The translations under genes and the position numbers were made by a program. 21,735 nucleotides of DNA, taken from positions 1 through 21,735 of the IMG/VR virus record IMGVR_UViG_3300027752_000128. One strand, 5' to 3'. Shown here piece by piece: positions 4,176 to 18,544 of the stretch (its first letter is position 1; every line of letters starts with the position of its first letter). Origin of the DNA: a virus. The notes under the pieces were generated by a model. It worked only from the letters and a program-made list of their open reading frames with translations, was not told the DNA's origin and made no database searches.

Positions 4176-5152
4176 TGCTAACTAATGACAACGCTTTGGT
4201 GTGGACCTTAACCATCCACTCCTTCGACGGTAAAGTAGCAGACAAAAGTCTTACTAGAGAAATCAATAATAGTTACGAAGCAGACGAATCAGCAGGCAAT
4301 TACACCAGGAGGATAGTCCCGCCCTTAATGCTAGCGAAAACTAACGCTGCCAAAAGTAAAATGCGCGACGAATTCAATGCAGCAACTCACCCGCACCACG
4401 GCAAAGGCTCACGAACCGGAGCCAAGAAACGCTACCTAGATGTGAAAGCTATCATTGAACAACACTCAGCTATCCTCGATCACGAAGCTGATCACTTCAT
4501 GATTCAGTATTCCGATTGGATAATCAGAGGTGGCCCAGAACAATATCTAAAGAAAATGTATAAGCCTAACCTCTACCCAGAGGCCAGCCAAATACGTCAA
4601 CGATTCTTTGCCGAATACAGTGTCTTACCTTATACGGTTCCACCAACTGGAGACTCGTCTCTCGACCTCACGCTAGTAGAAGAGTTCGAAAAAGCACAGT
4701 TAAAAGAAGATCAGCTAGTCCGCACAGATATCTCAAATCGCATCCACGACATCGTCAGCAAGATATACCAGCGCCTGATCAGCGACGGCAAGTTCAGGAA
4801 AGACCCATTCGAAAATCTCAGCGAGAAAGCAGAGTTAATTAAAACTCTAAATATATTTGACGACCCACGCATTGATTCAATTGCAATCGACGCAGCTAGA
4901 TTAGCTAACACAGACCTTTCAGCAATACGCAAAGACGACTCACAGAGATCTACCTCTGCCAACCAAGCCAATGACCTATTGGCAAAACTAGAAAAACTTA
5001 GGAACACACCACATGTTGAATGCAGACCTGACACCAGACCAGAAGATCAACAAAGCCAAGACATTGTTAAGCCTAAACCACGTTTGGTACTCAATGATTC
5101 TGTACCTACTGAAATTCAAACCAACATCAGCCGTTCCAACGTTCGCAACTAA
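4175..5152 (+). CDS. DUF3150-like protein of the ATPase/VWA set
   Basis: The product has 325 residues; ATG 4175 overlaps the previous stop as TAATG. Features typical of the phage family usually found between a MoxR ATPase and a VWA protein are visible. There is an N-terminal strand (LVWTLTIHSF), a basic 'KKRYLDVKAIIEQHSAILDHEADHFM' helix (in pieces, about residues 86-111), and 'YPEASQIRQRFFAEYSVLPY' (about 133-152) followed by a D-rich loop. A long helical region then contains NRIHDIVSKIYQRL (about 187-200). The last 46 residues overlap the next gene in another frame and look unstructured. It is probably the third part of the ATPase/VWA machine. The molecular role is unknown and the family name is from memory. 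Confidence 0.75.
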   Translation: MLTNDNALVWTLTIHSFDGKVADKSLTREINNSYEADESAGNYTRRIVPPLMLAKTNAAKSKMRDEFNAATHPHHGKGSRTGAKKRYLDVKAIIEQHSAILDHEADHFMIQYSDWIIRGGPEQYLKKMYKPNLYPEASQIRQRFFAEYSVLPYTVPPTGDSSLDLTLVEEFEKAQLKEDQLVRTDISNRIHDIVSKIYQRLISDGKFRKDPFENLSEKAELIKTLNIFDDPRIDSIAIDAARLANTDLSAIRKDDSQRSTSANQANDLLAKLEKLRNTPHVECRPDTRPEDQQSQDIVKPKPRLVLNDSVPTEIQTNISRSNVRN

Positions 5153-6239
5153 CGGCGTATTTCTTTTCTACAACCCCGATCACTTAAAAACGCTAACAGT
5201 GTTAGAAATCACAGGCGCACTAGCCCACGAGATCCTGCACTGTGTCCTGCAACACTTTAATCGTGACAGCGGGCGCGATAAAAAGCTCTACAACATAGCC
5301 GCTGACCTAGTCATCAATTACTTGCTACGTATTCAAGGCTTCATCCTCCCTCAGTATGTTCTCTACGAGTACATGGGTGTCCACGGCGCTAACAAGAGTG
5401 CCGATCAATGCTACGAAGAGTTAGCTGCCTTATCTGGTAACAACGGAAAAAGTAAACCTAACGATGACGGCACTCCAGGTACGCCAGGTACAGCAGATGA
5501 CGGCAGCGTCACACCGCAAGATCACAGTGAAGCTTGCACATGCACAATCTTAGAACCAGGCATGGATGAAGATGGCAATCCAATGGATAGCGAGTTCAAC
5601 GAAGCAGAAACCACACTTGATTGGGAGATGGCAGTAGAAAGCGCCACCAAAGAAGCCAAGCGAGTTGGTCAAATGCCAGGAGCCTTAGAAGAAATAATCA
5701 AAGCTCTGCTTAGACCGCAGGTTAACTGGGTAGCAGCCACCCGCAAGTGGATGTTTAACGACAACTCCGTCAGGAATTACAACAAGTTCAAAAAACGCTG
5801 GTTATCCAACGACGTTTACTTACCACGTAAGTTCAATAAGAAACTTGGCAACGGCGCTATTGTCATCGACAGTTCCGGCTCTTGCTCAACCGCACAAGAA
5901 CAAGGCTTCTGTTCAGAGATCAGCAGCATTTTGTCAGCATTCAAGCCCGACGAAATATTGTTCTTCTCTTGTGACACACAGGTCCATGAACCTAGAACCC
6001 TTACCCCCAAAGATCTGCCACTCAATAATCTAGCAATCCACGGACGCGGCGGTACAGCGTTCAATCCAGCGTTCCAATATATCGAATCGCTAGATAAGAA
6101 ACCTAATTGGTTAATTTATTTTACCGATCTAGATATCCAAGAAAATCGTCTGCCCGAAGATCCTGGCTACCCAGTTCTCTGGGTATGTAACGACAAACGA
6201 AGAACAGGTCCATTCGGCAAAACCGTATACATCACATAA
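5013..6239 (+). CDS. DUF2201 metallopeptidase-like plus VWA protein (CobT-like)
   Basis: A 408-residue protein with two recognisable parts. Residues 10-115 resemble the DUF2201 zincin-like domain: 'FATNGVFLFYNPDHL', HEILH (72-76, the HExxH zinc motif), H81 and 'YNIAADLVINYLL' (93-105). A flexible, Gly/Thr/Asp-rich linker (about 141-205) follows. Residues 280-408 form a VWA-like domain with MIDAS motif DSSGS (286-290), the conserved Thr in GRGGTAF (T348) and the Asp in YFTDLD (D372). The start is fixed by the N-terminal domain, so the 140-nt overlap with the previous gene is real if the sequence is right. VWA proteins of this kind are partners of MoxR ATPases. Whether it cuts proteins is not shown. 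Confidence 0.88.
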   Translation: MLNADLTPDQKINKAKTLLSLNHVWYSMILYLLKFKPTSAVPTFATNGVFLFYNPDHLKTLTVLEITGALAHEILHCVLQHFNRDSGRDKKLYNIAADLVINYLLRIQGFILPQYVLYEYMGVHGANKSADQCYEELAALSGNNGKSKPNDDGTPGTPGTADDGSVTPQDHSEACTCTILEPGMDEDGNPMDSEFNEAETTLDWEMAVESATKEAKRVGQMPGALEEIIKALLRPQVNWVAATRKWMFNDNSVRNYNKFKKRWLSNDVYLPRKFNKKLGNGAIVIDSSGSCSTAQEQGFCSEISSILSAFKPDEILFFSCDTQVHEPRTLTPKDLPLNNLAIHGRGGTAFNPAFQYIESLDKKPNWLIYFTDLDIQENRLPEDPGYPVLWVCNDKRRTGPFGKTVYIT

Positions 6240-6272: not shown

Positions 6273-6318
6273 CTAACTCGTTGCCTTTCACGAATGCAGG
6301 AGTTAGTGTTACTAACTC
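6273..6318. promoter_or_regulatory. Mutually exclusive hairpins / possible operator before polymerase operon
   Basis: GAGTTAG (6300-6306) can pair with CTAACTC at 6273-6279, or GAGTTAGT (6300-6307) can pair with ACTAACTC at 6311-6318 across a 3-nt loop. The second hairpin ends two bases before the GGAG ribosome binding site of the next gene. The same bases make the 15-bp inverted repeat GTTAGTGTTACTAAC (6302-6316), found also at 15431. It could act as a protein operator or as an RNA switch. Confidence 0.5.
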
Positions 6319-6330
6319 TCGGAGAAACTG

Positions 6331-6570
6331 ATGGAAATGTATTTTGTTGAAGCAGATGAAACTGCGATTCAATACACACTAAAAACAGAACCACCGGAAG
6401 CAATGTATTGGACTACATACAAACTTAAAAAGTCCGACATAAAAATAATCTCAAAGATGGACCGCTCACAAGCAGCCATGTACCGAGAAAAAATCTTAGC
6501 CTCAATCCAGAACGGAGAACAAAAGGCAAATGCACGCACTACAACAAACACTGCCGTCCGCAGAAAATGA
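6331..6570 (+). CDS. Small hypothetical protein upstream of DNA polymerase
   Basis: The product has 79 residues. ATG 6331 sits six bases after GGAG (6321-6324), immediately downstream of the inverted repeats at 6273-6318. The N-terminal half is beta-rich (MEMYFVEADETAIQYTLKTE), then comes a lysine-rich region (YKLKKSDIKIISKMDR) and a helix (SQAAMYREKILASIQ). The last residues are polar and basic. Its 3' end overlaps the polymerase gene by 41 nt, so it is probably translationally coupled to it. It is the first gene of the polymerase operon; no family is recognised. Confidence 0.65.
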   Translation: MEMYFVEADETAIQYTLKTEPPEAMYWTTYKLKKSDIKIISKMDRSQAAMYREKILASIQNGEQKANARTTTNTAVRRK

Positions 6571-8383
6571 CCTTATAACCCTCGACTTTGAGACTTACTT
6601 CGACTCAGACGTAAGCCTTACCAAACTCAACATCCAACAGTACGTAGCCCACCCCAAGTTCAAAGTGTGGGGCGTAGGTATCAAGGTCAACGGCGAACAA
6701 CCAGATTGGTATGGTGAAGGCGACGAAGCAATGAACGCCATCCACGCCATCGATTGGGACACCGCAATCCTTGTGTGCCACAACACTCTCTTTGACGGCT
6801 ACATCCTGTCAGAAGTGTATAACGTCCACCCCAAAACCTATTGCGACACCGCAGCAATGGCCCGTGGCTTAGAGCCACATAAGAGCGCATCACTCAGCGC
6901 AGTAGCAACCCGCACTTTCCCAGACGATGAGTCAATGCGTAAAGGCGTAGAGCTAGCCAGTGCAAAAGGTATATATGACTTATCCGCTTATCGCGGACTT
7001 GAAGAAGATATAGCTGGGTACTGTATCCAAGATGTGGAACTAACCTATGCCATCTTTAACGAGATGTCGCATCAGTTCCCCGTCAACGAATTAGATGTCA
7101 TTGACCTGACAACTAAGTTGTTTTGCCAACCCACCTTGTTGCTCGACGCACCAAGAGTAGAAGAAATGCTGGAAGAGATAAAAGAATCTACAGCTAAAAC
7201 TATTGAACAGTCTGGTATCACCAGAGAGACACTATCGAGCAGCGCGAAGTTCTCAGAACACTTAAAGTCTATCGGCATCATGCCCCCCACAAAGCGCAGC
7301 CCCAACACTGGTTTACAAATACCAGCGTTCGGTAAGAACGACCCAGGCTGGAAGCAACTAGTAGCCATGTACCCAGAACATAATAATTTATGGGACGGCA
7401 GGTTAGCTGCCAAAAGCCGCTTGGAAGAAACACGCGCTGACCGCTTTCTCCAAAGCATGAACAAAGAAGGCAAGCTTCCAATTCCTCTAAGATATTACGC
7501 AGCGCATACAGGTCGCTTCGGTGGTACAGAAAAGATCAACATGCAAAACCTGCCGCGAGAATCAGCACTGCGGCGCTGCCTTATAGCACCAGAAAACAAG
7601 TACGTATTCGTAGCCGACTTAAGTCAGATCGAAGCTCGTATGCTCGCCTGGATTGCTAACGAAGACCAGCTACTAGCCGCGTTCGCAAACAACGAAGATG
7701 TCTATTGTAAGTTTGCAACTACGATCTACGGACGAACCATTACCAAAGCGGACGAGGAGGAAAGATTCGTAGGTAAGACCGCAGTACTCGGCCTCGGGTA
7801 CGGTATGGGTATCGACAAGTTCGCAGCGACCTTAGCGTCCTCTGGTATCAAAGTTGCTCCAGAGCTACCCACACAGGTCGTAAGAACATACCGTAATACT
7901 TACGCGATGATTCCGGCCTATTGGACAGTAGCAAAATCATTGCTATTCGCCATGATGGACAAGACACAGTGGGGCAACAGCTTTGGCCCGCTAACAGTCC
8001 AGCGTCACGCATTGTTACTTCCCAATGGAATGTCACTTACGTATCCCAATTTAGAATACAACTACCGAAACTCTGAGTTCACCTTCGAAGGACAACGTGA
8101 CCGCATCGAACGAACCTACGGCGGCAAGCTCGTAGAGAATATCGTGCAGGCACTCAGTCGCATCGTAATTACAGACTCAATGTTGCGTCTAGAAAAAACC
8201 CTCAAGCCACTCAATGGTTCAGTCGTCCACACAGTCCACGATGAAATCCTTGTAGTGGCACCAGACCAAAACCCGCAAGCAATGCTAGATCTTCTGATCG
8301 CAGACATGTGTGTCCCACCAGCTTGGGCTAAGGATCTGCCGTTAGCCGCTGAAGGAAAATACGGAGTAGCGTATGCCAAATAG
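6530..8383 (+). CDS. polA: Family A DNA polymerase
   Basis: A 617-residue replicative polymerase. The N-terminal 3'-5' exonuclease domain shows LDFETYFD (D19, E21), CHNTLFDGYIL (83-93) and YCIQDVELTY (164-173). The polymerase domain has TGRFGG (327-332), motif A VADLSQIEAR (361-370, D363), the O-helix RFVGKTAVLGLGYG (412-425; R412, K416, Y424) and motif C VHTVHDEILV (566-575; H570, D571). The residue matching E. coli Phe762 is Leu420. In marine phages, Leu there has been linked with temperate lifestyles, which fits the integrase and repressor in this window. There is no 5'-3' exonuclease domain, as usual for phage enzymes. ATG 6530 gives the normal short lead-in to the first exonuclease motif. 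Confidence 0.97.
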   Translation: MHALQQTLPSAENDLITLDFETYFDSDVSLTKLNIQQYVAHPKFKVWGVGIKVNGEQPDWYGEGDEAMNAIHAIDWDTAILVCHNTLFDGYILSEVYNVHPKTYCDTAAMARGLEPHKSASLSAVATRTFPDDESMRKGVELASAKGIYDLSAYRGLEEDIAGYCIQDVELTYAIFNEMSHQFPVNELDVIDLTTKLFCQPTLLLDAPRVEEMLEEIKESTAKTIEQSGITRETLSSSAKFSEHLKSIGIMPPTKRSPNTGLQIPAFGKNDPGWKQLVAMYPEHNNLWDGRLAAKSRLEETRADRFLQSMNKEGKLPIPLRYYAAHTGRFGGTEKINMQNLPRESALRRCLIAPENKYVFVADLSQIEARMLAWIANEDQLLAAFANNEDVYCKFATTIYGRTITKADEEERFVGKTAVLGLGYGMGIDKFAATLASSGIKVAPELPTQVVRTYRNTYAMIPAYWTVAKSLLFAMMDKTQWGNSFGPLTVQRHALLLPNGMSLTYPNLEYNYRNSEFTFEGQRDRIERTYGGKLVENIVQALSRIVITDSMLRLEKTLKPLNGSVVHTVHDEILVVAPDQNPQAMLDLLIADMCVPPAWAKDLPLAAEGKYGVAYAK

Positions 8384-10889
8384 CATGAAGGTAACGTTCT
8401 TAGAATCTAGTAACGCTATGCCGTTATCTAAATTCTTTGGGCTTACTGAGAACCGCAGTTACCCCTATGTGAAAAAGGTAACTAGCCACGAACGCACAAT
8501 TGATAAAACACCTAAAGGCATTGGAGAGCTTCATCAGCTTATCACCACACATGGAAAGCAGGGCCATTGCCTGCTCAAAGGAAACCTAAAGCGTCCTCTC
8601 ATTGACGAATCAAGAGCAGGACTGACAGATAGGTCTGCACCAACAGACCTATTGATCATCGATCTAGACGGAATGGAGCTACCAAACACTCACTTACCCC
8701 GTCTATTTGACCAAGCAGAAATCACTAAACTCGCAGAAAACTTTATTGCTTTGCTACCAAAAGAGTTTATCGACGTTAGTTACATAGTCCAGGCGAGTGC
8801 CTCGATGGGCATGAAAGGAAACTTATGTAGCCTTCATTTATATTTCTTACTGGAAATACCCATCCCAGCTAAAGCTATCAAGCTCTGGTTTAAGCAAGTA
8901 AACCTTGCGACTCCGGCAGTTGCGTCACAAATAACGCTCAGTGCAAACGGACAAAGCTTAAGCTGGCCAATTGATCTGTCTATTTCAGACAGCACACACA
9001 CTTGCTTTATAGCGCCACCAGAATTCGAAGACAAACAATTAAACCCGTTCATCGACAACGCAAACAGAACAGCACTAGTTAAAAAGAAACAAACAACCAT
9101 TGACCTAGTACCGCTAGCAGCGGGCCTAAACCCAGAGGTCATATCAGAAGAAGAAGTAGAACTTAAGAATAAGTTACGTATAGCTGCTGGACTAAAGAAG
9201 AAACCTTCTAATATCACAACGATCTCTAGCAACCATCAGCCATACGAACTGCTATCTAACCCAGATCAAATGAACATCACCGTGCATAGTGATATTAACT
9301 TTCCATTCGTTCACTGTGACGTTAACGGCGGCGACAGTCACGCCTATTACTTCTTCGCAGACAACCCACTGTATATGTACAACTTCAAAGGAGAGCCTAT
9401 ATGGGAAATAGCTAAGGCTGACCCAGACTTCTTTATGCACATACAAGACATCGTCTCTCAGAAGAAAGGCAAGCGAGCACTCGTACCTATCGCACTACGT
9501 GATTTCAACACAGATATTTATTACAACGGGCTTTACGACGCAGACCTAGATCAGTTCAACGATCAGTTTCCACTCACCCCGACAAACAAACAGAGCATTG
9601 AAGGGTTCTTCAAAACTCAAAGCTACCCAAACCCAGAGTTCACCTCTGACGCAAACGTAGTATTTAACCCTCAACACAAAGGTAAGAGCGTAGACCTCAA
9701 CGCTAAACCGATGGCATACGTGAATATGTACCGCGAAAGTAAATACATGTTCGACGCAGTAGAGCCACCCAAACCGCTTACATACGTCTCAGCCTACAAG
9801 CTACAAGACACATGCCCGAACATCTATAAGATCATGTTTCACATGCTTGGCAACGGCGAGCAAGAGTTCTCACACTTTGTAAATTGGCTAGCGTTTGTAT
9901 ATCAGATGCGTAAAAAGTCAGAAACATCATGGGTCTTAAGCGGCATTCAAGGCACAGGTAAAGGTGTATTCGCCAACCAAGTTCTTAAAGCCATATTCGG
10001 CGAAGAACATGCGCCAATGAAAACGCTAGAGAACATAGAAGAGCAGTTCAATCTATATATGCGAAACGCATTATTCCTAGTAGTTGACGAGTTCCGCATG
10101 TCAGACAGCCGTGGCCCGATACGCATGGCTGACAATCTTAAGAACGCTATCACTGAACCTACCCTTACCATCAGAGGTATGAGAGCCAACCAGCGCACAG
10201 AAAAAAGTTACGTAAATTACATATTCTTTACGAACCGCCATGACTCAATGCAGATCGAACCAGGGGATCGCAGGTACAACATCGCACCCCGACAAGAAAT
10301 CTCACTGAGAGATGCACATCCCGATGTCATTAAAGTATTAGAGACAACAGGTCTAGAAGACGAGCTTTACCATTTCGCAGGCGCACTCAAAACCTTCGAA
10401 GTAATGCAGTCACAGATACGTACGCCACTACAAAACGAAGCTAAAGAAGTATTACGTGACGTAACCATGTCAGTCTTTGATGAGTTTATTCAAAGCTTAA
10501 AGTCAGGTGCAATCGCATCCTTCACAGACTTATTAGATATATCTCTAGCTAACACAATGCAAGCAGGGGAAATCACAACAGTTCAACGCTGCATTAAATT
10601 CTGGATGGCTGAAGCAATGAACAATTCTGAATACACCATCATACCTACAGAGCAGTTGCGTCTTACTTACCATGTTCTTACGGAACAAACTCCGCGTATC
10701 CCGCCAAAACAATTTTACAAAGATCTAAACAAACATGGATTTAAGAAAGTACGTAAGCGCCCATTCGCTGACACAGGCGGTAATCCAGCCACAGGCATAG
10801 AAATTAAATGGGCCTTTAGCAACGAAGCTGAAGGTAACGCATTAATAGAACAATACTTTGAAACCAAAGATTTAGGGCTTATCAAATGA
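8373..10889 (+). CDS. Primase-helicase (AEP-like plus SF3/D5-type ATPase)
   Basis: A large 838-residue fusion protein. The N-terminal part resembles an archaeo-eukaryotic-type primase: TDLLIIDLDGMELP (D97, D99) supplies the DxD metal-binding pair and CSLHLYFLL (S153, H155) the sxH motif. The C-terminal part is a helicase ATPase of the DUF5906/D5 kind, with Walker A GIQGTGKG (524-531), Walker B LVVDEFRMSD (569-578, D572/E573) and downstream 'NYIFFTNRHDSMQIEPGDRRY' carrying the sensor Asn and a likely arginine finger. It would open the duplex and make primers for the polymerase encoded just before it. The start at ATG 8373 overlaps the polymerase stop by 11 nt; an in-frame ATG at 8385 is an alternative. 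The helicase assignment is firm; the primase assignment is slightly less so. Confidence 0.9.
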   Translation: MPNSMKVTFLESSNAMPLSKFFGLTENRSYPYVKKVTSHERTIDKTPKGIGELHQLITTHGKQGHCLLKGNLKRPLIDESRAGLTDRSAPTDLLIIDLDGMELPNTHLPRLFDQAEITKLAENFIALLPKEFIDVSYIVQASASMGMKGNLCSLHLYFLLEIPIPAKAIKLWFKQVNLATPAVASQITLSANGQSLSWPIDLSISDSTHTCFIAPPEFEDKQLNPFIDNANRTALVKKKQTTIDLVPLAAGLNPEVISEEEVELKNKLRIAAGLKKKPSNITTISSNHQPYELLSNPDQMNITVHSDINFPFVHCDVNGGDSHAYYFFADNPLYMYNFKGEPIWEIAKADPDFFMHIQDIVSQKKGKRALVPIALRDFNTDIYYNGLYDADLDQFNDQFPLTPTNKQSIEGFFKTQSYPNPEFTSDANVVFNPQHKGKSVDLNAKPMAYVNMYRESKYMFDAVEPPKPLTYVSAYKLQDTCPNIYKIMFHMLGNGEQEFSHFVNWLAFVYQMRKKSETSWVLSGIQGTGKGVFANQVLKAIFGEEHAPMKTLENIEEQFNLYMRNALFLVVDEFRMSDSRGPIRMADNLKNAITEPTLTIRGMRANQRTEKSYVNYIFFTNRHDSMQIEPGDRRYNIAPRQEISLRDAHPDVIKVLETTGLEDELYHFAGALKTFEVMQSQIRTPLQNEAKEVLRDVTMSVFDEFIQSLKSGAIASFTDLLDISLANTMQAGEITTVQRCIKFWMAEAMNNSEYTIIPTEQLRLTYHVLTEQTPRIPPKQFYKDLNKHGFKKVRKRPFADTGGNPATGIEIKWAFSNEAEGNALIEQYFETKDLGLIK

Positions 10890-11638
10890 ACAACATTATA
10901 ACTTCCAGTACACCAGTTGGCGTAGAACCTATCAGCCCAAACTTTGAATTAGGTCTAGTAGACACATGGTCATACTCAGCCCTTAAGGTATTCGAAGAAT
11001 GCCCTTACCGCACATACATTAGTCGTGTACGTAAGATCCGCGAGCCAAGTGGACCTGCCGCTGAACGTGGTACAGAGATCCACCAGCAAGCAGAAGATTA
11101 TATTAAGGGTGAGCTAGGCGAGATGCCTGACACACTTAAGAAGTTCGAAGACGAGTTCGATGAGCTTAGGACTCTGTTCGCAGAAGCTAAGTGCGAAGTA
11201 GAAGGCGAATGGGGCTTCACAAAAGATTGGACTCCCACCGGCTGGATGTTCCCGAACACCTGGGCGCGTATCAAGCTCGATGCCTGTGTAACGCAAGATG
11301 AAACTTCAATGAGAGTTATTGATTTCAAGACAGGCAAACGCTTCGGTAACGAAATAGCGCACGGCCAGCAGGCACTAATCTATGCCATTGCAGCTTTCCT
11401 ACGACACCCAGACGCACAGTTTGTAAAAACAGAGTTGTGGTATCTCGATAAAAACGAAACAGCAACGCGGAATTACACCCGTGACGAGGCACTGTTGTTC
11501 TTACCTAAGTGGCATTCTCGGGCAGTCAAGATGACAACCTGCACAGACTTCACACCTACGCCAAGTCAAAGCGCTTGTCGCTGGTGTACGTTTAAAAAAG
11601 GCGATTCACCCGAATGCCAATACGGAGTTTCAAGATGA
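10886..11638 (+). CDS. Cas4/RecB-like PD-(D/E)XK nuclease with probable Fe-S cluster
   Basis: The product has 250 residues. ATG 10886 overlaps the primase stop as ATGA. Motifs of the Cas4/RecB/AddB nuclease group are in order: WSYSALKVFEECPYRTY (28-44, C39), RGTEIHQQAE (61-70, H66), RIKLDACV (128-135, D132), VIDFKTGK (144-151, D146 and K148) and HGQQALIYA (159-167, Q161 and Y166). The ending CRWCTFKKGDSPECQYG places Cys at 231, 234 and 244. With C39 this gives the four-cysteine set that holds a 4Fe-4S cluster in Cas4 and AddB. No Cas genes are near, so this is a phage recombination/replication exonuclease rather than a CRISPR protein. Function is inferred from motifs. Confidence 0.9.
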   Translation: MNNIITSSTPVGVEPISPNFELGLVDTWSYSALKVFEECPYRTYISRVRKIREPSGPAAERGTEIHQQAEDYIKGELGEMPDTLKKFEDEFDELRTLFAEAKCEVEGEWGFTKDWTPTGWMFPNTWARIKLDACVTQDETSMRVIDFKTGKRFGNEIAHGQQALIYAIAAFLRHPDAQFVKTELWYLDKNETATRNYTRDEALLFLPKWHSRAVKMTTCTDFTPTPSQSACRWCTFKKGDSPECQYGVSR

Positions 11639-11802
11639 ATATATTTTTACTCGTAGTGTTGTTAATCACCACACTCAGCATATCAATTAGTTTATTTGTA
11701 GTAGCTATAGAAGGACTTTTAGTTTGTATAGCTGTTGCAGCAATCAGTTTTTTAACCTGGAGGATACGACGTGACACTAATAACCGTTCTACAAGTGATT
11801 GA
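11635..11802 (+). CDS. Small two-helix membrane protein
   Basis: The product has 55 residues. ATG 11635 overlaps the nuclease stop as ATGA; an in-frame ATG at 11614 would lie inside the nuclease gene and is less likely. Residues 3-23 and 25-43 are two hydrophobic segments separated only by E26 (NIFLLVVLLITTLS, then GLLVCIAVAAISFLTW). A positively charged tail follows (RIRRDTNNR). It would sit in the inner membrane with the basic tail inside. A holin-like role is possible from size and topology, but no endolysin gene is nearby, so the function is left open. It heads a run of seven tiny coupled genes. Confidence 0.7.
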   Translation: MNIFLLVVLLITTLSISISLFVVAIEGLLVCIAVAAISFLTWRIRRDTNNRSTSD

Positions 11803-11917
11803 GCTTCTACTAGAATTAGCCACCGTGAGCTATCTAACGTACATCGCCTGGCAGATGCGCCGGGGCAACTACGTTGGCTCGTATGCAATGCGTAAGTTTG
11901 CGCGTGGTATTAGGTAA
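11771..11917 (+). CDS. Tiny protein with GTG start, probable membrane segment
   Basis: A 48-residue frame starts at GTG 11771, with a good GGAGG ribosome binding site at 11759-11763, inside the end of the previous gene (32-nt overlap). It ends at TAA 11915-11917, overlapping the next ATG. Residues 2-26 are hydrophobic (LITVLQVIELLLELATVSYL), and the C-terminus is basic (QMRRGNYVGSYAMRKFARG). It looks like a small membrane-associated peptide. The strong Shine-Dalgarno and exact junction with the next gene support it despite its size and GTG start. Confidence 0.6.
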   Translation: MTLITVLQVIELLLELATVSYLTYIAWQMRRGNYVGSYAMRKFARGIR

Positions 11918-12075
11918 TGAATAAGTGGCGAACAATCGTTATAAGGAATTTGAAACCTATAGATCAAGAGTACCTAGAAATCTTAATTGCGAATGAGTTA
12001 GCAATGAAGGGAATCGAAACTGAGGAATTCGGATTTAACATTGAAGTAGATTATCTAGAAAACAAGGAGATTTAA
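11917..12075 (+). CDS. Tiny soluble hypothetical protein
   Basis: A 52-residue frame from ATG 11917 (TAATG junction) to TAA 12073-12075, immediately before the next start at 12076. The product begins MNKWRTIVIRNLKP and continues with a helix and an acidic end (EEFGFNIEVDYLENKEI). It has the make-up of a small alpha/beta protein, with no membrane segment. The exact fit between two coupled neighbours is the main evidence that it is translated. No function is recognised. Confidence 0.6.
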   Translation: MNKWRTIVIRNLKPIDQEYLEILIANELAMKGIETEEFGFNIEVDYLENKEI

Positions 12076-12411
12076 ATGGACCCACTTTATATCGGTATTG
12101 TAGGCGCTGCCGGTCTCTTGTTCCTTGCGTTCAAGTTCGGTATGCGCAAAGTAATTAACTACGACATATTCTTTGACGTAGTTATTACCGGCATTCTTAT
12201 GTTCTCACTAGCTGGCACTGTCAGCGGTATGACCGGCGCGTTAATCGGTGGCCTTATTGTCTCAGCAATTTTGTACACCATGAAGCGCACCATGATCCGC
12301 GAGCAGTTAGTCGTAGTCAAAGAACCAAGACAGTTCCACAAAGAAACTATCTACGTACCCAAATTCAAGTGGGTAGCAGTCAAGCCTGACGGTACAAGGG
12401 TTCAGCTATGA
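12076..12411 (+). CDS. Small membrane protein with about three transmembrane helices
   Basis: The product has 111 residues; ATG 12076 follows AAGGAG (12064-12069). Hydrophobic segments lie at about residues 4-20 (LYIGIVGAAGLLFLAF), 31-47 (IFFDVVITGILMFSLAG) and 49-67 (VSGMTGALIGGLIVSAILY). A cytoplasmic-type basic tail then ends in short strands (KFKWVAVKPDGTRV). The G-rich helices suggest close packing. Similar small membrane proteins are common in phages of marine bacteria, but their role is not known. It shares an ATGA junction with the next gene. Confidence 0.75.
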   Translation: MDPLYIGIVGAAGLLFLAFKFGMRKVINYDIFFDVVITGILMFSLAGTVSGMTGALIGGLIVSAILYTMKRTMIREQLVVVKEPRQFHKETIYVPKFKWVAVKPDGTRVQL

Positions 12412-12575
12412 GTAATCCAAAGCTATTTGTTTTAGGAAAGCCAGACGATTTCAGCAAAACAGAATTCAATTGGTTAGCAGATTTAATCACAGAGAAACTT
12501 AGCGATAACGGAATAAAACCACAGGGTTATTCATTCCAAATACGAGTTGAGTACAAACCAAAGGAGACCACCTAA
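12408..12575 (+). CDS. Tiny hypothetical protein (55 aa)
   Basis: The frame runs from ATG 12408 (ATGA overlap with the previous stop) to TAA 12573-12575 (TAATG overlap with the next start). The product begins MSNPKLFVLGKPDDFSKTEF, has a helix (NWLADLITEKLSDNG) and a strand (YSFQIRVEYK), and ends KPKETT. The ending is dictated by the Shine-Dalgarno cassette that serves the next gene, and the same ending occurs in the following gene. It looks like a small alpha/beta protein of unknown role. Confidence 0.62.
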   Translation: MSNPKLFVLGKPDDFSKTEFNWLADLITEKLSDNGIKPQGYSFQIRVEYKPKETT

Positions 12576-12760
12576 TGCCACTCATACCACTCGCATTATT
12601 GTTCGGCGGCAGTACAATTGCATTAGCAATAGTCGTTAGCGTAGAAAAAATGTATAGAAAACACACTGCCTTACGACAAGCCGAAGCATGGATAGCAGCA
12701 GAAGTTATCGAAGGTAATCTTAGATTCGTTAACGGCGTACCATACAAGGAGACCACCTAA
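12575..12760 (+). CDS. Small single-span membrane protein
   Basis: The product has 61 residues; ATG 12575 is the TAATG junction after AAGGAGACCACC. An N-terminal hydrophobic segment (residues 2-22: PLIPLALLFGGSTIALAIVV) is followed by a basic stretch (EKMYRKHTALRQ). This fits a signal-anchor with the C-terminal part inside. The rest is a helix and a short strand (LRFVNGVPYKETT). It ends at another copy of the same junction. The function is unknown; a holin or spanin component is conceivable but unsupported. Confidence 0.68.
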   Translation: MPLIPLALLFGGSTIALAIVVSVEKMYRKHTALRQAEAWIAAEVIEGNLRFVNGVPYKETT

Positions 12761-12990
12761 TGTCAGAGATGTTAGATCGTGCAGATGCAGATGAATACCT
12801 ACCCAATTGCCCTTGGAACCAAAAAGATCCCACAAAAACAGACTTCGAAGTAACAATACTTTTGTCTAGGGAAATCAAACAAATAGTCACGGCTCACAAC
12901 GAAGAAGAAGCTATGAAAAACGCAGTGATAATTTGTGATGAGCAAGGCTTGGGCTTCGAAGCAGAAGCTCTTGAAGCTACAGAAGTTTAA
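12760..12990 (+). CDS. Small acidic hypothetical protein
   Basis: The product has 76 residues; ATG 12760 is the second AAGGAGACCACCTAATG junction. The N-terminus (MSEMLDRADADEYLPNCPWN) is polar. Residues 28-75 have a strand-helix pattern (FEVTILLSREIKQIVTAHNE, then EEAMKNAVIICDEQG, FEAEALEATEV) like the small protein at 1861-2046. That pattern, a strand pair followed by an 'EEAxxxA' helix, suggests the two share a fold. It is the last of the tiny-gene run and is followed after 21 bp by the helicase gene. Confidence 0.68.
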   Translation: MSEMLDRADADEYLPNCPWNQKDPTKTDFEVTILLSREIKQIVTAHNEEEAMKNAVIICDEQGLGFEAEALEATEV

Positions 12991-13011
12991 CCATACCCTT
13001 TGGAGTTAGTA

Positions 13012-14358
13012 ATGCTAAACCCATTCGAACATCAAACCGTAACAACCAAGTTCATTCTTGATAACCCTCGTTGCCTAATAACCAGCGACCCAGGTTCAGG
13101 TAAGACCCGTAGTGTTATCGATGCTTTTAATCAGCCATTCAGAAAAAACAAAAAGCTTTTAGTATTAGCGCCGCTTTCAATACTAGAAGCGTCCTGGGGA
13201 GACGACATTAAAAAGTTCGCTCCAGAACTGACATACGCATTCGCATACGCTAAAGATCGCCACTCTGCATTCACGGCTGACGTAGACATTGTTATCACCA
13301 ACCATGACGCAGTGAAGTGGCTCGACAAAAACCAGCACTTCTTAGCTGACTTCAGCATGGTGTGTATCGACGAATTCACAGCGTTCAAAAACAAAGATTC
13401 ACAACGTAGCAAAGCAGCCCTAAGAATCGTTAAGCATTTTGACCAACGTGTTGCTATGTCCGGTACACCAAACTCAAACAGCATCTTAGATATCTGGCAC
13501 CCAACACTACTCATTGACGACGGCGCACGGCTAGGCATTAGGTTCTATAGTTTCCGCGAAGCAGTATGTACATCCACCTATAACGGCTTCGGCAATATGT
13601 GGACCGAGAAAGATACCGCACAAGAAACTGTAGCGTCAGCTATTGGCGACATCAATATCAGGTTTGAGTTAGAAGAATGCCTCGACATGCCTGACCACTC
13701 GATCAGCTACAAATACGTAACATTGCCTAAAAAGCTAATGGATCGGTACACAACATTAAGTGAGGAGTCAATGTTGTACACAGGCCAAAGTACAATCAAT
13801 GCGATCAACGCTGGTGTGTTAGTTCGTAAGCTCTTACAGCTTTGTACCGGCAGTGTGTATAACGCAGAAGGCAAAGCAGAAACATTTCACAAGGCCCGTT
13901 ACGAGTTAGTAATGGATCTAGTTAACGAGCGTAAACACAGTGTTGTTGCCTTCAACTGGCGACACGAACGCGATCAACTTATCAAACTCGCAGAAGCACA
14001 GAAAGTTAGCTACGAAGTTATCGACGGTGCCACACCTGGCGAACGTCGCACAGACATAGTTCAGCGGTTTCAAGCAGGACAAATCACTGTTTTGTTTTGC
14101 CACCCACAGTCTGCCGGTCACGGGTTAACACTCACAAAAGCAAATACCACCATCTGGTGTTCGCCAACTTACAACGCCGAGCATTTTCAGCAGTTCAATC
14201 GACGCATATACCGGGCCGGTCAAACCCAAAAAACAGAAACAATATTGATTGCTGCAAAAGATACTTGGGAAACAGACGTATATAAAAAACTAGAAAACAA
14301 ACTAAGCAAAATGGAAGAGCTATTAACTGTATTACTAAAAATAAGGAAAGCTGCATGA
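13012..14358 (+). CDS. SNF2-like superfamily 2 DNA helicase
   Basis: The product has 448 residues from ATG 13012, which has TTGGAG just upstream; an in-frame TTG at 13000 overlaps that ribosome binding site. Helicase motifs are in order: Q-region FEHQTVTTKF (5-14), Walker A SDPGSGKT (25-32), the Ib-like VITNHDAVKW (94-103), motif II CIDEFTAFKN (118-127, a DEFT form of DExx), motif III AMSGTPNSN, and the C-terminal SAGHGLTLTKAN and QFNRRIYRAGQ motifs V and VI. The motif VI form and the 'ID..T...R..I..F' segment are typical of the phage SNF2-like group. It would translocate on double-stranded DNA to aid replication or recombination. Confidence 0.93.
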   Translation: MLNPFEHQTVTTKFILDNPRCLITSDPGSGKTRSVIDAFNQPFRKNKKLLVLAPLSILEASWGDDIKKFAPELTYAFAYAKDRHSAFTADVDIVITNHDAVKWLDKNQHFLADFSMVCIDEFTAFKNKDSQRSKAALRIVKHFDQRVAMSGTPNSNSILDIWHPTLLIDDGARLGIRFYSFREAVCTSTYNGFGNMWTEKDTAQETVASAIGDINIRFELEECLDMPDHSISYKYVTLPKKLMDRYTTLSEESMLYTGQSTINAINAGVLVRKLLQLCTGSVYNAEGKAETFHKARYELVMDLVNERKHSVVAFNWRHERDQLIKLAEAQKVSYEVIDGATPGERRTDIVQRFQAGQITVLFCHPQSAGHGLTLTKANTTIWCSPTYNAEHFQQFNRRIYRAGQTQKTETILIAAKDTWETDVYKKLENKLSKMEELLTVLLKIRKAA

Positions 14359-14723
14359 GCCTAAAAGAAAACGTAGAAAAACGTATAACTATAAAAACTG
14401 AACTAAAACAATTGAGCACTAAAGAAAAACTACTAAGGGAAGAGTTAGAACCTCTTGAGTTTGAGATTCAGAAAGAATTAACCAGCACTGGTATGGACGC
14501 AGTAAGAATTGCAGGCCATACCTTGAGTCTTAAAAAGCAATCAATGCCCAACATCACGGACAAAGAATTAGCTTTTAAGTACATAGCTGCCGAAGAAAAG
14601 TGGGAGTTACTCCCAAAACAAATCCTTGCTACCGCGTTTCGTGACGAAATTGCGTTAGGAGGGGCAATCCCTGGCGTGGAGTCTTTCGAGAAAACCACAC
14701 TTTCTGTAATCAAACTACCTTAA
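14355..14723 (+). CDS. Coiled-coil phage protein, Gp157-like size and plan
   Basis: The product has 122 residues; ATG 14355 overlaps the helicase stop as ATGA. Residues 1-45 are a charged helical or coiled-coil region (KENVEKRITIKTELKQLSTK, then EKLLREELEPLEFEIQKEL). Residues 46-63 hold a short strand pair (GMDAVRIAGHTLSLKK), and the rest contains 'WELLPKQILATAFRDEIALG' and 'IPGVESFEKTTLSVIKLP'. A coiled coil, a small beta hairpin and a 'PGVE...LSV' ending are seen in uncharacterised phage proteins beside helicases or recombination genes. It probably assists the neighbouring helicase or DNA-binding protein; this is inference from position. Confidence 0.72.
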   Translation: MSLKENVEKRITIKTELKQLSTKEKLLREELEPLEFEIQKELTSTGMDAVRIAGHTLSLKKQSMPNITDKELAFKYIAAEEKWELLPKQILATAFRDEIALGGAIPGVESFEKTTLSVIKLP

Positions 14724-14743
14724 CTAAAACTGGAGAATATCCT

Positions 14744-15430
14744 ATGGCTAATAAAGCCGTTGTACTAGCATCATCTGAATTACCTGCACACTTGCAAGCA
14801 AGCAGTGGCCTCGGCAACGAGAACATCAAGACAGAACACCTACAGGTGCCTCGTCTCAAGCAGATGCAAGGTATCAGCCCCGAATGTGATAAGTATCACG
14901 CCAACTATGTAGAAGGCGCTGACATCGGTCACTGGCTAATCACACCATCTAACCAAAACCTAGGCGAAGAAGTCTATGCCCTCAACGTCAAGTTCACTGA
15001 GAACTTCGTTATCTGGGGTGACCGTGAGTCTGGCGGCGGTATGAAAGGTTCATTCAATTCTATGATGGAAGCCGAGACTGCATTAGCTGCTGTCGCCGAC
15101 AAAGCTAATTGCTACATCGAAGAGTCTCACGACCATGTGTTGCTCTTAGTTGACCCAGTTACTGGCGAAGCATCAGACCAAGCCGTCTTGTTTTCAATGA
15201 GCCGCTCCAAGATGGGTACGTCCAGAAACTGGAATACCCAGATCGTAGCCAAGCCTGGTGATCGCTTCAGCAGCTTATGGAAGCTAGCAAGTGTTCGCGT
15301 AGAAGGTAAGAAGGGTACATTCATGAAGACTGACGTTTCATGGGTCGGTTACGCACAAGAAGCGCACTACGAATCAGCTAAGAGTAAGTACTTAAGCATG
15401 ACTCCTAATGCCATTTCTGCGGCTGCGTAA
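14744..15430 (+). CDS. Conserved phage protein, possible ssDNA-binding protein
   Basis: The product has 228 residues; ATG 14744 follows GGAG. The segment NIKTEHLQVPRLKQMQGISP (about residues 27-46) and the following beta-rich domain (HWLITPS, EVYALNVKFTENFVIWG, VLLLVDPVTG, AVLFSMSRSK) are typical of a phage family located in replication modules. Its members are often suspected to be single-strand DNA-binding proteins with an OB-like fold. The C-terminus is small and alanine-rich, not the acidic tail of a classic SSB. It lies between the helicase set and the nuclease gene and is followed by an inverted repeat and hairpin. The ssDNA-binding role is inference. Confidence 0.8.
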   Translation: MANKAVVLASSELPAHLQASSGLGNENIKTEHLQVPRLKQMQGISPECDKYHANYVEGADIGHWLITPSNQNLGEEVYALNVKFTENFVIWGDRESGGGMKGSFNSMMEAETALAAVADKANCYIEESHDHVLLLVDPVTGEASDQAVLFSMSRSKMGTSRNWNTQIVAKPGDRFSSLWKLASVRVEGKKGTFMKTDVSWVGYAQEAHYESAKSKYLSMTPNAISAAA

Positions 15431-15445
15431 GTTAGTAACACTAAC
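15431..15445. promoter_or_regulatory. 15-bp inverted repeat, possible repressor operator
   Basis: GTTAGTAACACTAAC begins right after the stop of the 228-residue gene. It is the exact reverse complement of the element at 6302-6316, GTTAGTGTTACTAAC. It lies just upstream of the nuclease-repressor operon, where an autoregulatory operator would be expected. Binding by the repressor at 15883-16551 is inferred. Confidence 0.5.
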
Positions 15446-15446
15446 G

Positions 15447-15464
15447 CCCCCTCGTACGAGGGGG
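15447..15464 (+). terminator. Perfect GC-rich hairpin, weak terminator or leader structure
   Basis: CCCCCTCGTACGAGGGGG is an 18-bp perfect palindrome, one base after the inverted repeat. It is followed by TAGTTGGTTTAATT, not a solid T run, so termination would be partial. Its right arm holds the only purine-rich Shine-Dalgarno candidate (AGGGGG) for the TTG start at 15477, so folding could also limit translation of the nuclease gene. Confidence 0.55.
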
Positions 15465-15476
15465 TAGTTGGTTTAA

Positions 15477-15920
15477 TTGAACGAGCACAGTTTCGTAAAA
15501 GCGATTCATCGGTTGCTCCCGAAAGAAATTTATAAGTGGAAAATTCACGATAAATTTACGGGCGGAGTACCCGACGCTTATTACGAAGGATCTAAAGGTT
15601 CACTTTGGATCGAATACAAATACGTAAAAACATTACCAAAAAGGGAAGGAACTGAAGTGCAACTAGGGCTAAGTGCGCTTCAGCAAGGCTGGTTGGCCCG
15701 AGCAGTCGAGAACAAGATCAACGCTTGGGTAGTCGTAGGTAATGATAATAAATGTTTAGTGTTACAAAACAAACGCTGGACATACCCGTTTAACAATGAT
15801 TACTATCGATTGTATAGTGTTACTAACAAGGAATTGGTAGCATTAATAAGTAGTAATACTCTACATCAACAACGAGAGCCTAATGAAAGCACATACCAAA
15901 CCAACTCTAGGAGACCCTAA
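15477..15920 (+). CDS. VRR-NUC-like endonuclease with TTG start
   Basis: The product has 147 residues. The catalytic pattern of a compact PD-(D/E)XK (VRR-NUC-like) nuclease is visible: 'GGVPDAYYEG' (29-38, D33) followed by 'LWIEYKYVK' (43-51, E46 and K48). Before it is the usual N-terminal helix and 'LPKEIYKWKIHDKF' (14-27). An in-frame TAA lies directly before TTG 15477, and the conserved N-terminus needs that start, so a TTG start is the best reading. Later residues (LQQGWLARAVENKINAWVVV) are typical of the family. It probably processes branched DNA during replication or recombination. It is the first gene after the operator-like repeat and overlaps the repressor gene by 38 nt. Confidence 0.85.
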   Translation: MNEHSFVKAIHRLLPKEIYKWKIHDKFTGGVPDAYYEGSKGSLWIEYKYVKTLPKREGTEVQLGLSALQQGWLARAVENKINAWVVVGNDNKCLVLQNKRWTYPFNNDYYRLYSVTNKELVALISSNTLHQQREPNESTYQTNSRRP

Positions 15921-16551
15921 GTTACTTTCTGAAAATCTTAGGAAAGTGTGGGAGCGTAAAAGTAAAGAATATAACCTTAACCAAAAAGAAGCAGCCGACC
16001 TACTTGGGTGGTCAAGAGGAGCTTTATGCCAGTACCTCAACGGTCATACTAAAATAAACGTAGAAGCGTTAATCAAATTAGCTAATTTCTTCGACGTAGA
16101 CCCAGCAGAACTAGACCCAAACATCGTCCACTTCTTACCTAATATGTGGAAAATTCCCGTCAAGTACGCTATTTCTAATGCAAAATTAAAAAGAAGTAAC
16201 CGCAAGCCTACTACTCCAGGTGTTTTTACTAACCCAACCGACTCGATAGCCAAAGCTATTAAACACGTTACGTTCGACGCACAGGGTCGCTTAAAACAAA
16301 AAGTCGTTGGCATAGACATAGACGCACCAATCAGTTGGGGAGTTGGTAAAAACAAAAACACCATTACTTCAGGAACGATCTTGTGCGTTGAGAAAAATAC
16401 CAGCACATCAGCATCCAACCAAGATTTGTGGCTTGTTCAACTAAAAAATGAGGATACGTTTAAAGTTATGAACACAACCGAATTACCAAGACTAAAAGAT
16501 ATGGAAAAAAGCTGGATAATTATATCGTTTCTAATGCAGAAGCTTTCATGA
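15883..16551 (+). CDS. XRE-family CI-like repressor
   Basis: The product has 222 residues. Residues 14-75 form a clear XRE helix-turn-helix (LLSENLRKVWERKSKEYNLN, then QKEAADLLGWSRGALCQYLN, then INVEALIKLANFFDVDPAEL). The C-terminal half has the strand pattern of a CI/LexA dimerisation domain (VVGIDIDAPISWG...ITSGTILCVEK...DLWLVQLKNEDTFKVM). I cannot find the Ser (GDSM-like) and Lys of the self-cleaving S24 peptidase, so induction may not go through RecA-stimulated cleavage. It likely keeps the prophage silent and may bind the GTTAGTGTTACTAAC elements. Unusually, it lies on the same strand as the early genes, near their end, rather than divergent from them. ATG 15883 overlaps the nuclease gene. 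Confidence 0.85.
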   Translation: MKAHTKPTLGDPKLLSENLRKVWERKSKEYNLNQKEAADLLGWSRGALCQYLNGHTKINVEALIKLANFFDVDPAELDPNIVHFLPNMWKIPVKYAISNAKLKRSNRKPTTPGVFTNPTDSIAKAIKHVTFDAQGRLKQKVVGIDIDAPISWGVGKNKNTITSGTILCVEKNTSTSASNQDLWLVQLKNEDTFKVMNTTELPRLKDMEKSWIIISFLMQKLS

Positions 16552-17198
16552 GTATCTTACAGTTCAAAAGCTTAGAATATTCCCAAGAAGTTATGGACTT
16601 TCAACGCGCAGTAGACAACGAGAGTCGGCTTGCTGACTTTAAAAACGACGCAGACTTTATTACCAGTAGAAAATGGCGCAACCGAGCCGTTTCAGTTATG
16701 TGGTCTGAACAATGGGACAACGTTCGCGAACCCTTGTACACCTTAGAAAAACACACAGGTAAAAAAATTCCAAAAGGATACACCGCTAAAAAGTACAACA
16801 GCTTAGAAGGGCTAAGTTGTATGCCAATGATTACTACGCCATCTGATTTTGATGATCGGTTTTACGACGATAAGAGCATTATACAAAGTATGCTCTACCA
16901 ACCACTGACCACCGATAAGCCCTGGCCAGGATTAATACTTCTGTACAGGTTTGCAGAAAACATGATTGCTGCTCCAATCCCTGGTTTTCTAATAGGACAA
17001 ATGACGCAGTGGGGACTTCGTAATGGATATTTTCGCAACCAAAACGAAATGCAAGCACTTTTAGCTAAAGTGATTAGTTCGAACAGACCGTTAGATTGGG
17101 ATGTAAATAATGTCAGAGCAAATCAATTAACTTACAAGCAGACTAGAAAAATAATCCCTTTAAAGGCAGATAAAGTTAGCAGCACTAAACAGCACTAA
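16548..17198 (+). CDS. Unknown protein coupled to the repressor
   Basis: The product has 216 residues; ATG 16548 overlaps the repressor stop as ATGA, so it is co-translated with it. It is soluble and rich in aromatic residues (SRKWRNRAVSVMWSEQWDNV; DKPWPGLILLYRFAENMI). A Gly/Pro/Ile segment (APIPGFLIGQMTQWG, about residues 143-157) is not long enough to be a confident membrane helix. The C-terminus is basic (YKQTRKIIPLKADKV). I recognise no domain. Its position with the repressor suggests a lysogenic-state gene (superinfection exclusion, antirepressor or similar), which is speculation from context. Confidence 0.72.
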   Translation: MSILQFKSLEYSQEVMDFQRAVDNESRLADFKNDADFITSRKWRNRAVSVMWSEQWDNVREPLYTLEKHTGKKIPKGYTAKKYNSLEGLSCMPMITTPSDFDDRFYDDKSIIQSMLYQPLTTDKPWPGLILLYRFAENMIAAPIPGFLIGQMTQWGLRNGYFRNQNEMQALLAKVISSNRPLDWDVNNVRANQLTYKQTRKIIPLKADKVSSTKQH

Positions 17199-17206
17199 CG
17201 TATAAT
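17175..17206 (+). promoter_or_regulatory. Likely promoter with overlapping repeat operators before excisionase-like gene
   Basis: TATAAT (17201-17206) is a perfect -10 hexamer, 45 bp before the ATG at 17251. The -35 region is poor and lies within GTTAGCAGCACTAA (17175-17188), followed by a second CAGCACTAA (17190-17198). The two copies of CAGCACTAA are 10 bp apart, one helical turn, and the block is bounded by GTTAG and CTAAC, relating it to the 15-bp elements at 6302 and 15431. A weak -35 covered by repeats suggests control by an activator or repressor. Confidence 0.5.
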
Positions 17207-17250: not shown

Positions 17251-17508
17251 ATGAAAGAAGTACTTTTACAATCCTACGGACCAATGATGACGGTAGACGA
17301 GTTAGCTGAAATGTTAAGAATCACAAGGCAAACCCTATATACGAATTTGAACAGCCCCGATTTTCCAATTAAGTATGCAAGGCTTGGCAAAAGATACCTG
17401 TTCAACACAGAACACGTTGCAGATTACATAACAGGGAACTACGCGCCTAGTGCAAAAAACAAGACGAGCGTAGATAAACAAGAGCCAGGAACCCTGACTA
17501 TCGAATAG
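17251..17508 (+). CDS. Excisionase/AlpA-like HTH DNA-binding protein
   Basis: The product has 85 residues from ATG 17251. Residues 11-56 are a MerR-type winged helix-turn-helix of the excisionase kind: MTVDELAEMLRITRQTLYTN, then LNSPDFPIKYARLGKRYLFN and TEHVADYI. Small proteins of this type either bend DNA at attachment sites (excisionases) or activate transcription. Its gene lies tail-to-tail with the integrase, overlapping it by 11 nt at the 3' ends, which fits an excision partner. The promoter-like TATAAT with repeats upstream suggests separate control from the repressor operon. The polar C-terminal tail is probably unstructured. Confidence 0.85.
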   Translation: MKEVLLQSYGPMMTVDELAEMLRITRQTLYTNLNSPDFPIKYARLGKRYLFNTEHVADYITGNYAPSAKNKTSVDKQEPGTLTIE

Positions 17509-18544
17509 GTTTCTTAAGTAAGTTTTCCGGTTTCAAATTGGTGTACCGCTTCAGTTGGCTCCAATCTCTGTGACCGCTGACCGCAGCAACCTCTGGTATA
17601 TCCCAATCCGCTTCAAACAAACGGCTGATAGCTTCGTGCCTCAAGTCGTGAAACCGTAAGCGAAGCTCCTTACCCTTAAACCTTGGCAGATTAAGGTTTG
17701 CATATTTTCTCCATTTGTCTGATACCGAACTAGCTTCTTGCGGCTGCGTGCCGATTGCAGGAGCAGTAAGTGGTGCGTTGTGGTTCAACATAGATTCACG
17801 TAGGAGCACCTCTCTCGTAGCCTCAAACATAGGAATTATCTCGTCTCGACCTTCATCAGTAGATTTATCTTTGCGGCCCCTAATCAACATAAGACTCTTA
17901 TCAAAATCTAAATCGCTACGTTGGAGATTATGAATTTCACCTTGGCGAAGTGCCGACTCGATGGCGATAACATAATAGTCTTTCAGATACCCATCTTTCA
18001 TGTGCTCAAGAATATCTAGCTCTTCGTCCGTGGGTCGTCGATCTCGTTCTGTGCTTGCGCTGGTTAGCCTCTCCTCGTTCAGCAAATCAGTAGCAGCCTT
18101 GAACGGACATTCTGCTAAAGGAATATTCTGCATTCTTTTAGCTCTTCTAATAGCTTGCGTAATGTAAGTTAGGTTTTGCTTAAGGGTAGAACCCTTGACC
18201 GTCTTGCGCCTTTGGGCAGCGTAATCCATAACAGCTTGGACTGTTAGTTTGTCCAGAGTAAGATGCCCAATATCGTTCTGAATACGTTTCATGCTCGCCA
18301 ACTTAGGAGCACCGAAAGTTCTGACAGTTTGTGCTTCATCAATAGACCACTGGATAATTTGGCGTAGGTCTATGTCTTTTTGTCTACCTATCTCAACCCA
18401 AGTCTTTTCGCGCATCTGTTTTTCAACGTCTGAAATCCAATTTTTAGCCGCAGTTTTGTTTTCAAAACTCTGAGAAACCTGCTTATAACCTGTGCGTGTA
18501 ACTACTGCATTCCACTTTCCGCTAACTGGTCTAACATAACCCAT
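17498..18544 (-). CDS. int: Tyrosine integrase
   Basis: The product has 348 residues; the start codon ends at 18544 and is preceded on the minus strand by AAGGGG and TAGGA. Residues 1-60 look like the arm-binding N-terminal domain (VSGKWNAVVTRTGYKQVSQS; NKTAAKNWISDVEKQM), and residues 60-160 form a core-binding domain. The catalytic domain has R200 in ALRQGEIH, a conserved Lys in GRKDKS (about 223-228), HDLRHEA (299-305; H299, R302), GHRDWSQ (324-330; H325) and the nucleophile Y334 in LKRYTNL. All active-site residues are present, so the protein should work. It integrates and, with an excisionase, removes the phage genome at attB. attP lies immediately upstream of the gene. Confidence 0.95.
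   Translation of the reverse strand: MGYVRPVSGKWNAVVTRTGYKQVSQSFENKTAAKNWISDVEKQMREKTWVEIGRQKDIDLRQIIQWSIDEAQTVRTFGAPKLASMKRIQNDIGHLTLDKLTVQAVMDYAAQRRKTVKGSTLKQNLTYITQAIRRAKRMQNIPLAECPFKAATDLLNEERLTSASTERDRRPTDEELDILEHMKDGYLKDYYVIAIESALRQGEIHNLQRSDLDFDKSLMLIRGRKDKSTDEGRDEIIPMFEATREVLLRESMLNHNAPLTAPAIGTQPQEASSVSDKWRKYANLNLPRFKGKELRLRFHDLRHEAISRLFEADWDIPEVAAVSGHRDWSQLKRYTNLKPENLLKKPIR

Follow-up and report, generated by a model that had tools for sequence, protein, structure and literature searches.

Dispersed inverted repeats as putative operators of a CI-like XRE repressor in an uncultivated phage, with a parallel change of recognition-helix residue and operator base

Known repressor sites and the repeats of the window

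The six operators of phage lambda are grouped in two clusters, and Streptomyces phage phiC31 carries dispersed conserved inverted repeats beside its early promoters that are bound by a phage repressor. Dispersed sites have also been described in L5 and other cluster A mycobacteriophages, which have more than 20 repressor sites genome-wide, located in promoters and in short gaps between genes (PMC9283540); in phage P1, whose C1 repressor has 22 dispersed operators of 17 bp (PMC8546580); and in SPbeta, in which a 15-bp repeat (SPBRE) at promoter and intergenic regions is bound by the master repressor MrpR (YopR) (PMC10516654). Here we describe a family of inverted repeats in the virus record IMGVR_UViG_3300027752_000128, the entire 21,735 bp of which form the stretch analyzed (the window). 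Based on comparisons with related phages, we consider it very probable that these repeats serve as operators for a putative DNA-binding repressor that the phage itself encodes, a CI-like XRE protein (15883 to 16551).

Many copies of one site, enriched in promoters and gaps, are found here as in the dispersed-operator systems, and by analogy with P1, L5, and SPbeta the system would work in the same way, with symmetric sites of the lambda type. L5 stoperators are 13-bp, asymmetric, transcription-oriented sites for a monomeric two-domain repressor, whereas the sites described here are palindromic and 17 bp long and lack that asymmetry and orientation. The P1 C1 consensus (ATTGCTCTAATAAATTT) is asymmetric as well, and the likeness to P1 is in operator layout. 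MrpR is tyrosine-recombinase-like, unlike the XRE/CI relative here, and phiC31, with another host group and another sequence, is similar in repeat layout. Lambda CI is similar in helix-turn-helix (HTH) family and fold, in the 17-bp dyad with 14 bp between symmetric outer bases, and in the Gln that relatives of the window have at the position reading A2 in lambda. It differs in that the operators here are dispersed genome-wide, no self-cleaving S24 dyad is apparent, and the window lineage combines Arg with G at base 2. Dispersed operators are already known, and it is the natural change of operator-repressor specificity that is the surprising part.

The window contains three exact copies of GTTAG-N5-CTAAC (3115, 6302, and 15431), compared with 0.02 expected from dinucleotide shuffles. 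When up to three mismatches to GTTAGTGTTACTAAC are allowed and palindromic copies are tallied on both strands, there are 9 matches, compared with 0.80 expected and a maximum of 3 in 100 shuffles. The weaker copies are at 13005, 17175, and 15813, so that all six copies named in the original prediction, which was made by eye, are present at the positions given there. As it had also claimed, the sequence at 15431 to 15445 is the exact reverse complement of that at 6302 to 6316, and both lie in true non-coding gaps. The further claim of intergenic copies at three operon starts holds for 6302 and 15431 but not for 17175, which overlaps the end of the open reading frame (ORF) that begins at 16548. 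A loose version of the arms with two mismatches occurs 25 times in the window versus 11 expected, which is only about twofold over chance in the window alone; the weaker copies owe their credibility to recurrence in relatives and not to their own statistics. A scan of IMG/VR for the exact 15-mer returned 114 stretches, which is about the chance level for so large a collection and is not evidence, and the annotated phage collection contains no close DNA-level relative of the window.

Orthologous sites in relatives and the putative binder

The relatives are 80 viral contigs matched through the primase at 45 to 48% identity, which together with the window make 81 loci. Gene order is broadly shared with the window (moxR, vwa, pol, primase, recB, helicase, gp34-like, nuclease, xre, xis, and integrase). 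A mismatch search with GTTAGTGTTACTAAC across the 80 relatives barely exceeded its reversed control, owing to the shifted consensus of these phages. A de novo search of their gaps, in which the window motif was not presupposed, found ATTAG-N5-CTAAT inverted repeats at the same junctions. Among all 5-bp arms with a spacer of 5, this is by far the top family in the 81 loci (187 copies versus 1.9 expected), and the ATTAG arms show no comparable excess at other spacers; GTTAG-N5-CTAAC is confined to the window within this set.

The 12 long records each have 4 to 15 exact sites spread over their full length, and the reversed pattern has 0. In six long relatives, 48 of 64 exact sites (~75%) are non-coding, compared with a background of 6 to 8%, as counted with simple ORF-based gene calls. 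The sites are typically 20 to 50 bp ahead of gene starts: ~35 bp before recB, ~29 bp before the helicase gene, before the primase gene, and in the gap between the gp34-like and nuclease genes, with another in the 3' part of pol. The motif is thus found genome-wide and concentrated in non-coding gaps rather than at random coding positions, and the comparison with related phages that the original prediction had proposed shows that dozens of relatives carry orthologous sites at these junctions. The pol site, ~350 bp before the primase gene, is a candidate coding-sequence operator with constant arms and a varying spacer in many phages. Two helicase relatives (L199 and L200) are in metagenome-assembled genome contigs labeled Flavobacteriales and Neomarinimicrobiota, although these host labels may be binning errors.

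Sites with ATTAG arms (A-type) are present in 27 of 35 relatives that have an XRE gene and in 0 of 8 that have the nuclease region but no XRE homologue (Fisher P = 9e-5, with kinship ignored). Among the eight XRE-bearing exceptions are L121 to L123, which have another motif, and several phages whose half-sites are of the AATAS type. At the same junctions, L185, L196, L126, L218, and L241 combine an ATTAG half-site with AATAC or AATAG, and these are candidates for a further specificity or a relaxed class.

The XRE protein has a lambda-type HTH, with a match to the HTH_3 profile at 2.2e-11. In a phmmer comparison with solved chains it matches lambda CI at 7.7e-5, and in a Foldseek search (7jvt at 7e-7, and 1lmb) its fold is matched best by a lambda-186 hybrid repressor, the other top matches being lambda repressor and the complex of lambda repressor with its operator. 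A single-sequence search of viral contigs with this protein gave no match. It has no match to the Peptidase_S24 profile, the profile of the self-cleaving domain, and its C-terminal part, for which model confidence is modest, is poorly conserved, with no invariant Ser. The S24 Ser/Lys pair is needed for self-cleavage in those CI-like repressors that cleave themselves, which not all do. Since the cleavage dyad is not apparent, induction may depend on an antirepressor and not on RecA. Three relatives (L130, L131, and L132) have a short XRE protein in which the HTH is kept and a cysteine-containing tail replaces the C-terminal domain, with no integrase or xis match; possibly these are lytic derivatives or Cro-like proteins.

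The extended consensus is a 17-bp lambda-like dyad, TATTAGYNNNRCTAATA, in which the outer T...A is symmetric in 99 of 145 non-redundant sites. The pyrimidine at position 6 and the purine at position 10 combine freely (T/G 36, C/A 35, C/G 33, and T/A 31 among the 145 sites), and this independent variation argues for a DNA operator and against an RNA hairpin; separate reading of each half-site by a symmetric protein dimer would explain it. In 38 of the 145 sites, in either orientation, a TTG starts 12 bp before the palindrome, while most other offsets give ~5 of 290 oriented views. TTGNNN, as a -35 box, is thus 17 bp from a TAATAT that is built from the right half-site plus its flank, and this fixed geometry indicates that a good fraction of the sites are operators within sigma-70 promoters. 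Dyad operators of 17 bp that cover early promoters are found in the relatives; for the window, a promoter at 6302 is recognized by eye only.

If the palindromes instead worked as translational operators, forming hairpins in the RNA close to ribosome-binding sites or start codons, one would expect the proximity seen for several copies, which are 30 nt or less from start codons, with one centered on the helicase AUG, and by inspection the 6302 copy could form an 8-bp stem. However, a stem would disfavor C-A, while all four combinations of positions 6 and 10 are about equally common; the sites occur in both orientations relative to genes and also inside genes, share the -35/-10 geometry, and are absent where XRE is absent. 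We therefore consider RNA hairpins extremely improbable. The LexA sites of some bacteria have TTAG/CTAA-like arms, and xis-like genes accompany xre in most relatives, either of which could point to a different binder, namely LexA or another host factor, or the phage's excisionase-like HTH_17 protein. Against this, the motif shifts between phage lineages along with the XRE recognition helix, the XRE protein is a lambda CI relative that the 17-bp geometry fits, and L130 and L131, in which neither xis nor int is detected, retain XRE and sites; this last point speaks against the xis protein in particular. A binder other than XRE is thus very unlikely.

A variant that keeps XRE as the binder, and is compatible with the explanation we prefer, is that the sites serve primarily as stoperator-like roadblocks to elongation and only secondarily as promoter operators. 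Sites inside genes and at internal junctions with no recognizable -35, the site that many relatives have in the 3' part of pol, and the position of the 15431 site just ahead of a terminator-like hairpin are all in its favor. It is less easily reconciled with the clear subset embedded in promoters at a fixed 17-bp geometry, or with symmetric sites that lack the orientation known from L5 stoperators (PMC9283540), and we think it unlikely that roadblocks are the primary function.

Recognition-helix residue and operator base

At the position of lambda Gln44, all 66 distinct HTH sequences of relatives other than L121 to L123 have Gln, and so do L121 to L123; Arg is found only in the window (Arg45) and in L291, a 34.3-kb contig. 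L291 was the only find when further Arg45 repressors were sought with two degenerate DNA patterns, and these scans were not exhaustive, because the second missed L291 although it fits the pattern. Nine GTTAG-type sites are present in the L291 genome, three of them exact and six with one mismatch, compared with one for the control, at places orthologous to 3115, 6302, 13005, and 15431 as well as elsewhere (coordinates are on the joined reverse complement and possibly off by one). When sites were collected by the core TTAGYNNNRCTAA, with no assumption about the outer base, that base was G at 17 and A at 1 of 26 outer positions of the Arg lineage, while in the relatives it was A at 364 and G at 6 of 382. 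Base composition is no explanation for this shift, as the G+C contents are similar (44 to 49% in the Arg lineage and a mean of 45%).

In the lambda repressor-operator structure, Gln44 reads A at operator position 2, and the changed base here is position 2 in the 17-bp register. A swap of Gln-A to Arg-G is chemically natural, and Arg45 would contact this G. In L121 to L123, in which the helix starts Lys-Gln-Ser-Asn, the sites are AGTAS-N5-STACT (12 sites in 51.8 kb; control, 0). On the helicase tree, the phages with this operator class, TAGTAS-N5-STACTA in its longer form, fall within the A-type phages.

Several observations weigh against the interpretation of the repeats as promoter operators with a readable specificity. 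Many sites have no recognizable -35 box, and a strict promoter scan found no promoter at 6302 or 15431; sites of this kind may be roadblocks or operators of other promoters. The Arg/G pairing is seen in two phages that are sisters and thus represents one evolutionary event in one lineage, just as the switch in L121 to L123 is confined to a single lineage. Within the recognition helix, Cys49 is also unique to the Arg lineage, and half-site position 1 has also changed, from T to A, a difference for which Arg45 alone need not account. Both Arg phages fall outside the main XRE clade on the helicase tree, the root of which is uncertain, so the tree sets no direction for the Arg/G change.

In the mechanism that we propose, a repressor dimer would bind the dyad AGTTAGYNNNRCTAACT so that each half-site is read by one recognition helix, the Arg45 helix of this lineage being matched to operator G at position 2 and the Gln of relatives to A. 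Where it covers the -10 of an early promoter or spans the start of a gene, the dimer would silence replication, nuclease, and excision functions in the lysogen, acting from operators dispersed over the genome and not clustered in one switch. Its occupancy would also confer immunity to phages of the same operator type. The original prediction of a regulon under the XRE repressor is strengthened by the orthologous junction sites, the co-occurrence with XRE, and the helix-linked sequence change, with binding predicted from sequence, and the putative regulon is larger than three operon starts.

Individual sites in the window and implications for the phage group

The candidate operator at 6302 to 6316 (+ strand) is an exact GTTAGTGTTACTAAC, or AGTTAGTGTTACTAACT in its 17-bp form at 6301 to 6317, in the gap between the vwa stop (6239) and an ATG at 6331. 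Downstream of it are orf6331 and the family A polymerase, primase, and recB-like genes (6331 to 11638, + strand), a putative operon that is syntenic in the relatives. An orthologous site is present in the sister phage (G001), and by eye there is a possible promoter, TTGCCT-17-TAGTGT (TTGAAC-17-TAGTGT in the sister), with the operator over its -10. The exact copy at 15431 to 15445 (- strand; GTTAGTAACACTAAC on the + strand), a candidate operator in the gap between the gp34-like and nuclease-repressor genes, begins immediately past the gp34-like stop codon and adjoins a G+C-rich terminator-like hairpin at 15446 to 15465 (+). The sister has an orthologous site, likewise past a stop codon and ahead of an equivalent hairpin, and the same gap in L142, L153, and L157 holds A-type sites. 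The third exact copy, GTTAGCACCACTAAC at 3115 to 3129 (+), is a candidate operator within the MoxR-like ATPase gene; at these codons the sister carries GTTAGCGTCGCTAAC, in which the spacer residues differ.

At 13005 to 13019 (+), a candidate operator (GTTAGTAATGCTAAA) spans the helicase start codon, as had been noted from the sequence, with the ATG at 13012; the identical 15-mer is in the same place in the sister, and in most relatives the A-type operator is instead ~29 bp upstream of the helicase start. A weaker candidate, GTTAGCAGCACTAAA at 17175 to 17189 (+), overlaps the final codons of the ORF at 16548 to 17198, ~60 bp upstream of the excisionase-like gene and beside a TATAAT at 17201. 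Its counterpart in the sister is AGTTAGTATTGCTATAC, upstream of the xis gene. The excisionase-like HTH_17 gene itself (17251 to 17508, +), identified by profile match, is a candidate member of the regulon.

Upstream of the repressor gene, within the nuclease gene, is an imperfect site, TATAGTGTTACTAAC at 15813 to 15827 (+), which overlaps the -10 of a promoter-like TTAACA-17-TATAGT and possibly serves as an autoregulatory operator. The case for autoregulation is weak because the site lies in coding sequence and, although the site is kept in the sister, its -35 is not; coding constraint may explain the conservation. The repressor gene (15883 to 16551, +) encodes 222 residues, and a tyrosine integrase gene at 17498 to 18544 (-; Phage_integrase, 3.8e-18) indicates a temperate lifestyle. 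Two long genes of the window, at 4175 to 5152 and 5013 to 6239, overlap by ~140 bp out of frame, and a similar overlap is present in the sister.

A palindrome spotted by eye thus leads to a genome-wide regulon with a named putative binder in uncultivated phages, and the natural shift of one helix residue together with one operator base, the latter at many sites, directly illustrates how repressor and operator co-evolve, a route by which related phages gain separate immunity. We suggest, as a tentative and somewhat doubtful extension, that this is a large uncultivated group of temperate phages that rely on a lambda-type repressor with symmetric genome-wide operators, which act at promoters and as roadblocks, and that their immunity diverges by a readable code: operator base 2 would be determined by the residue at lambda position 44 (A for Gln, G for Arg). 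If this residue-base code is true, immunity groups would be predictable from sequence.

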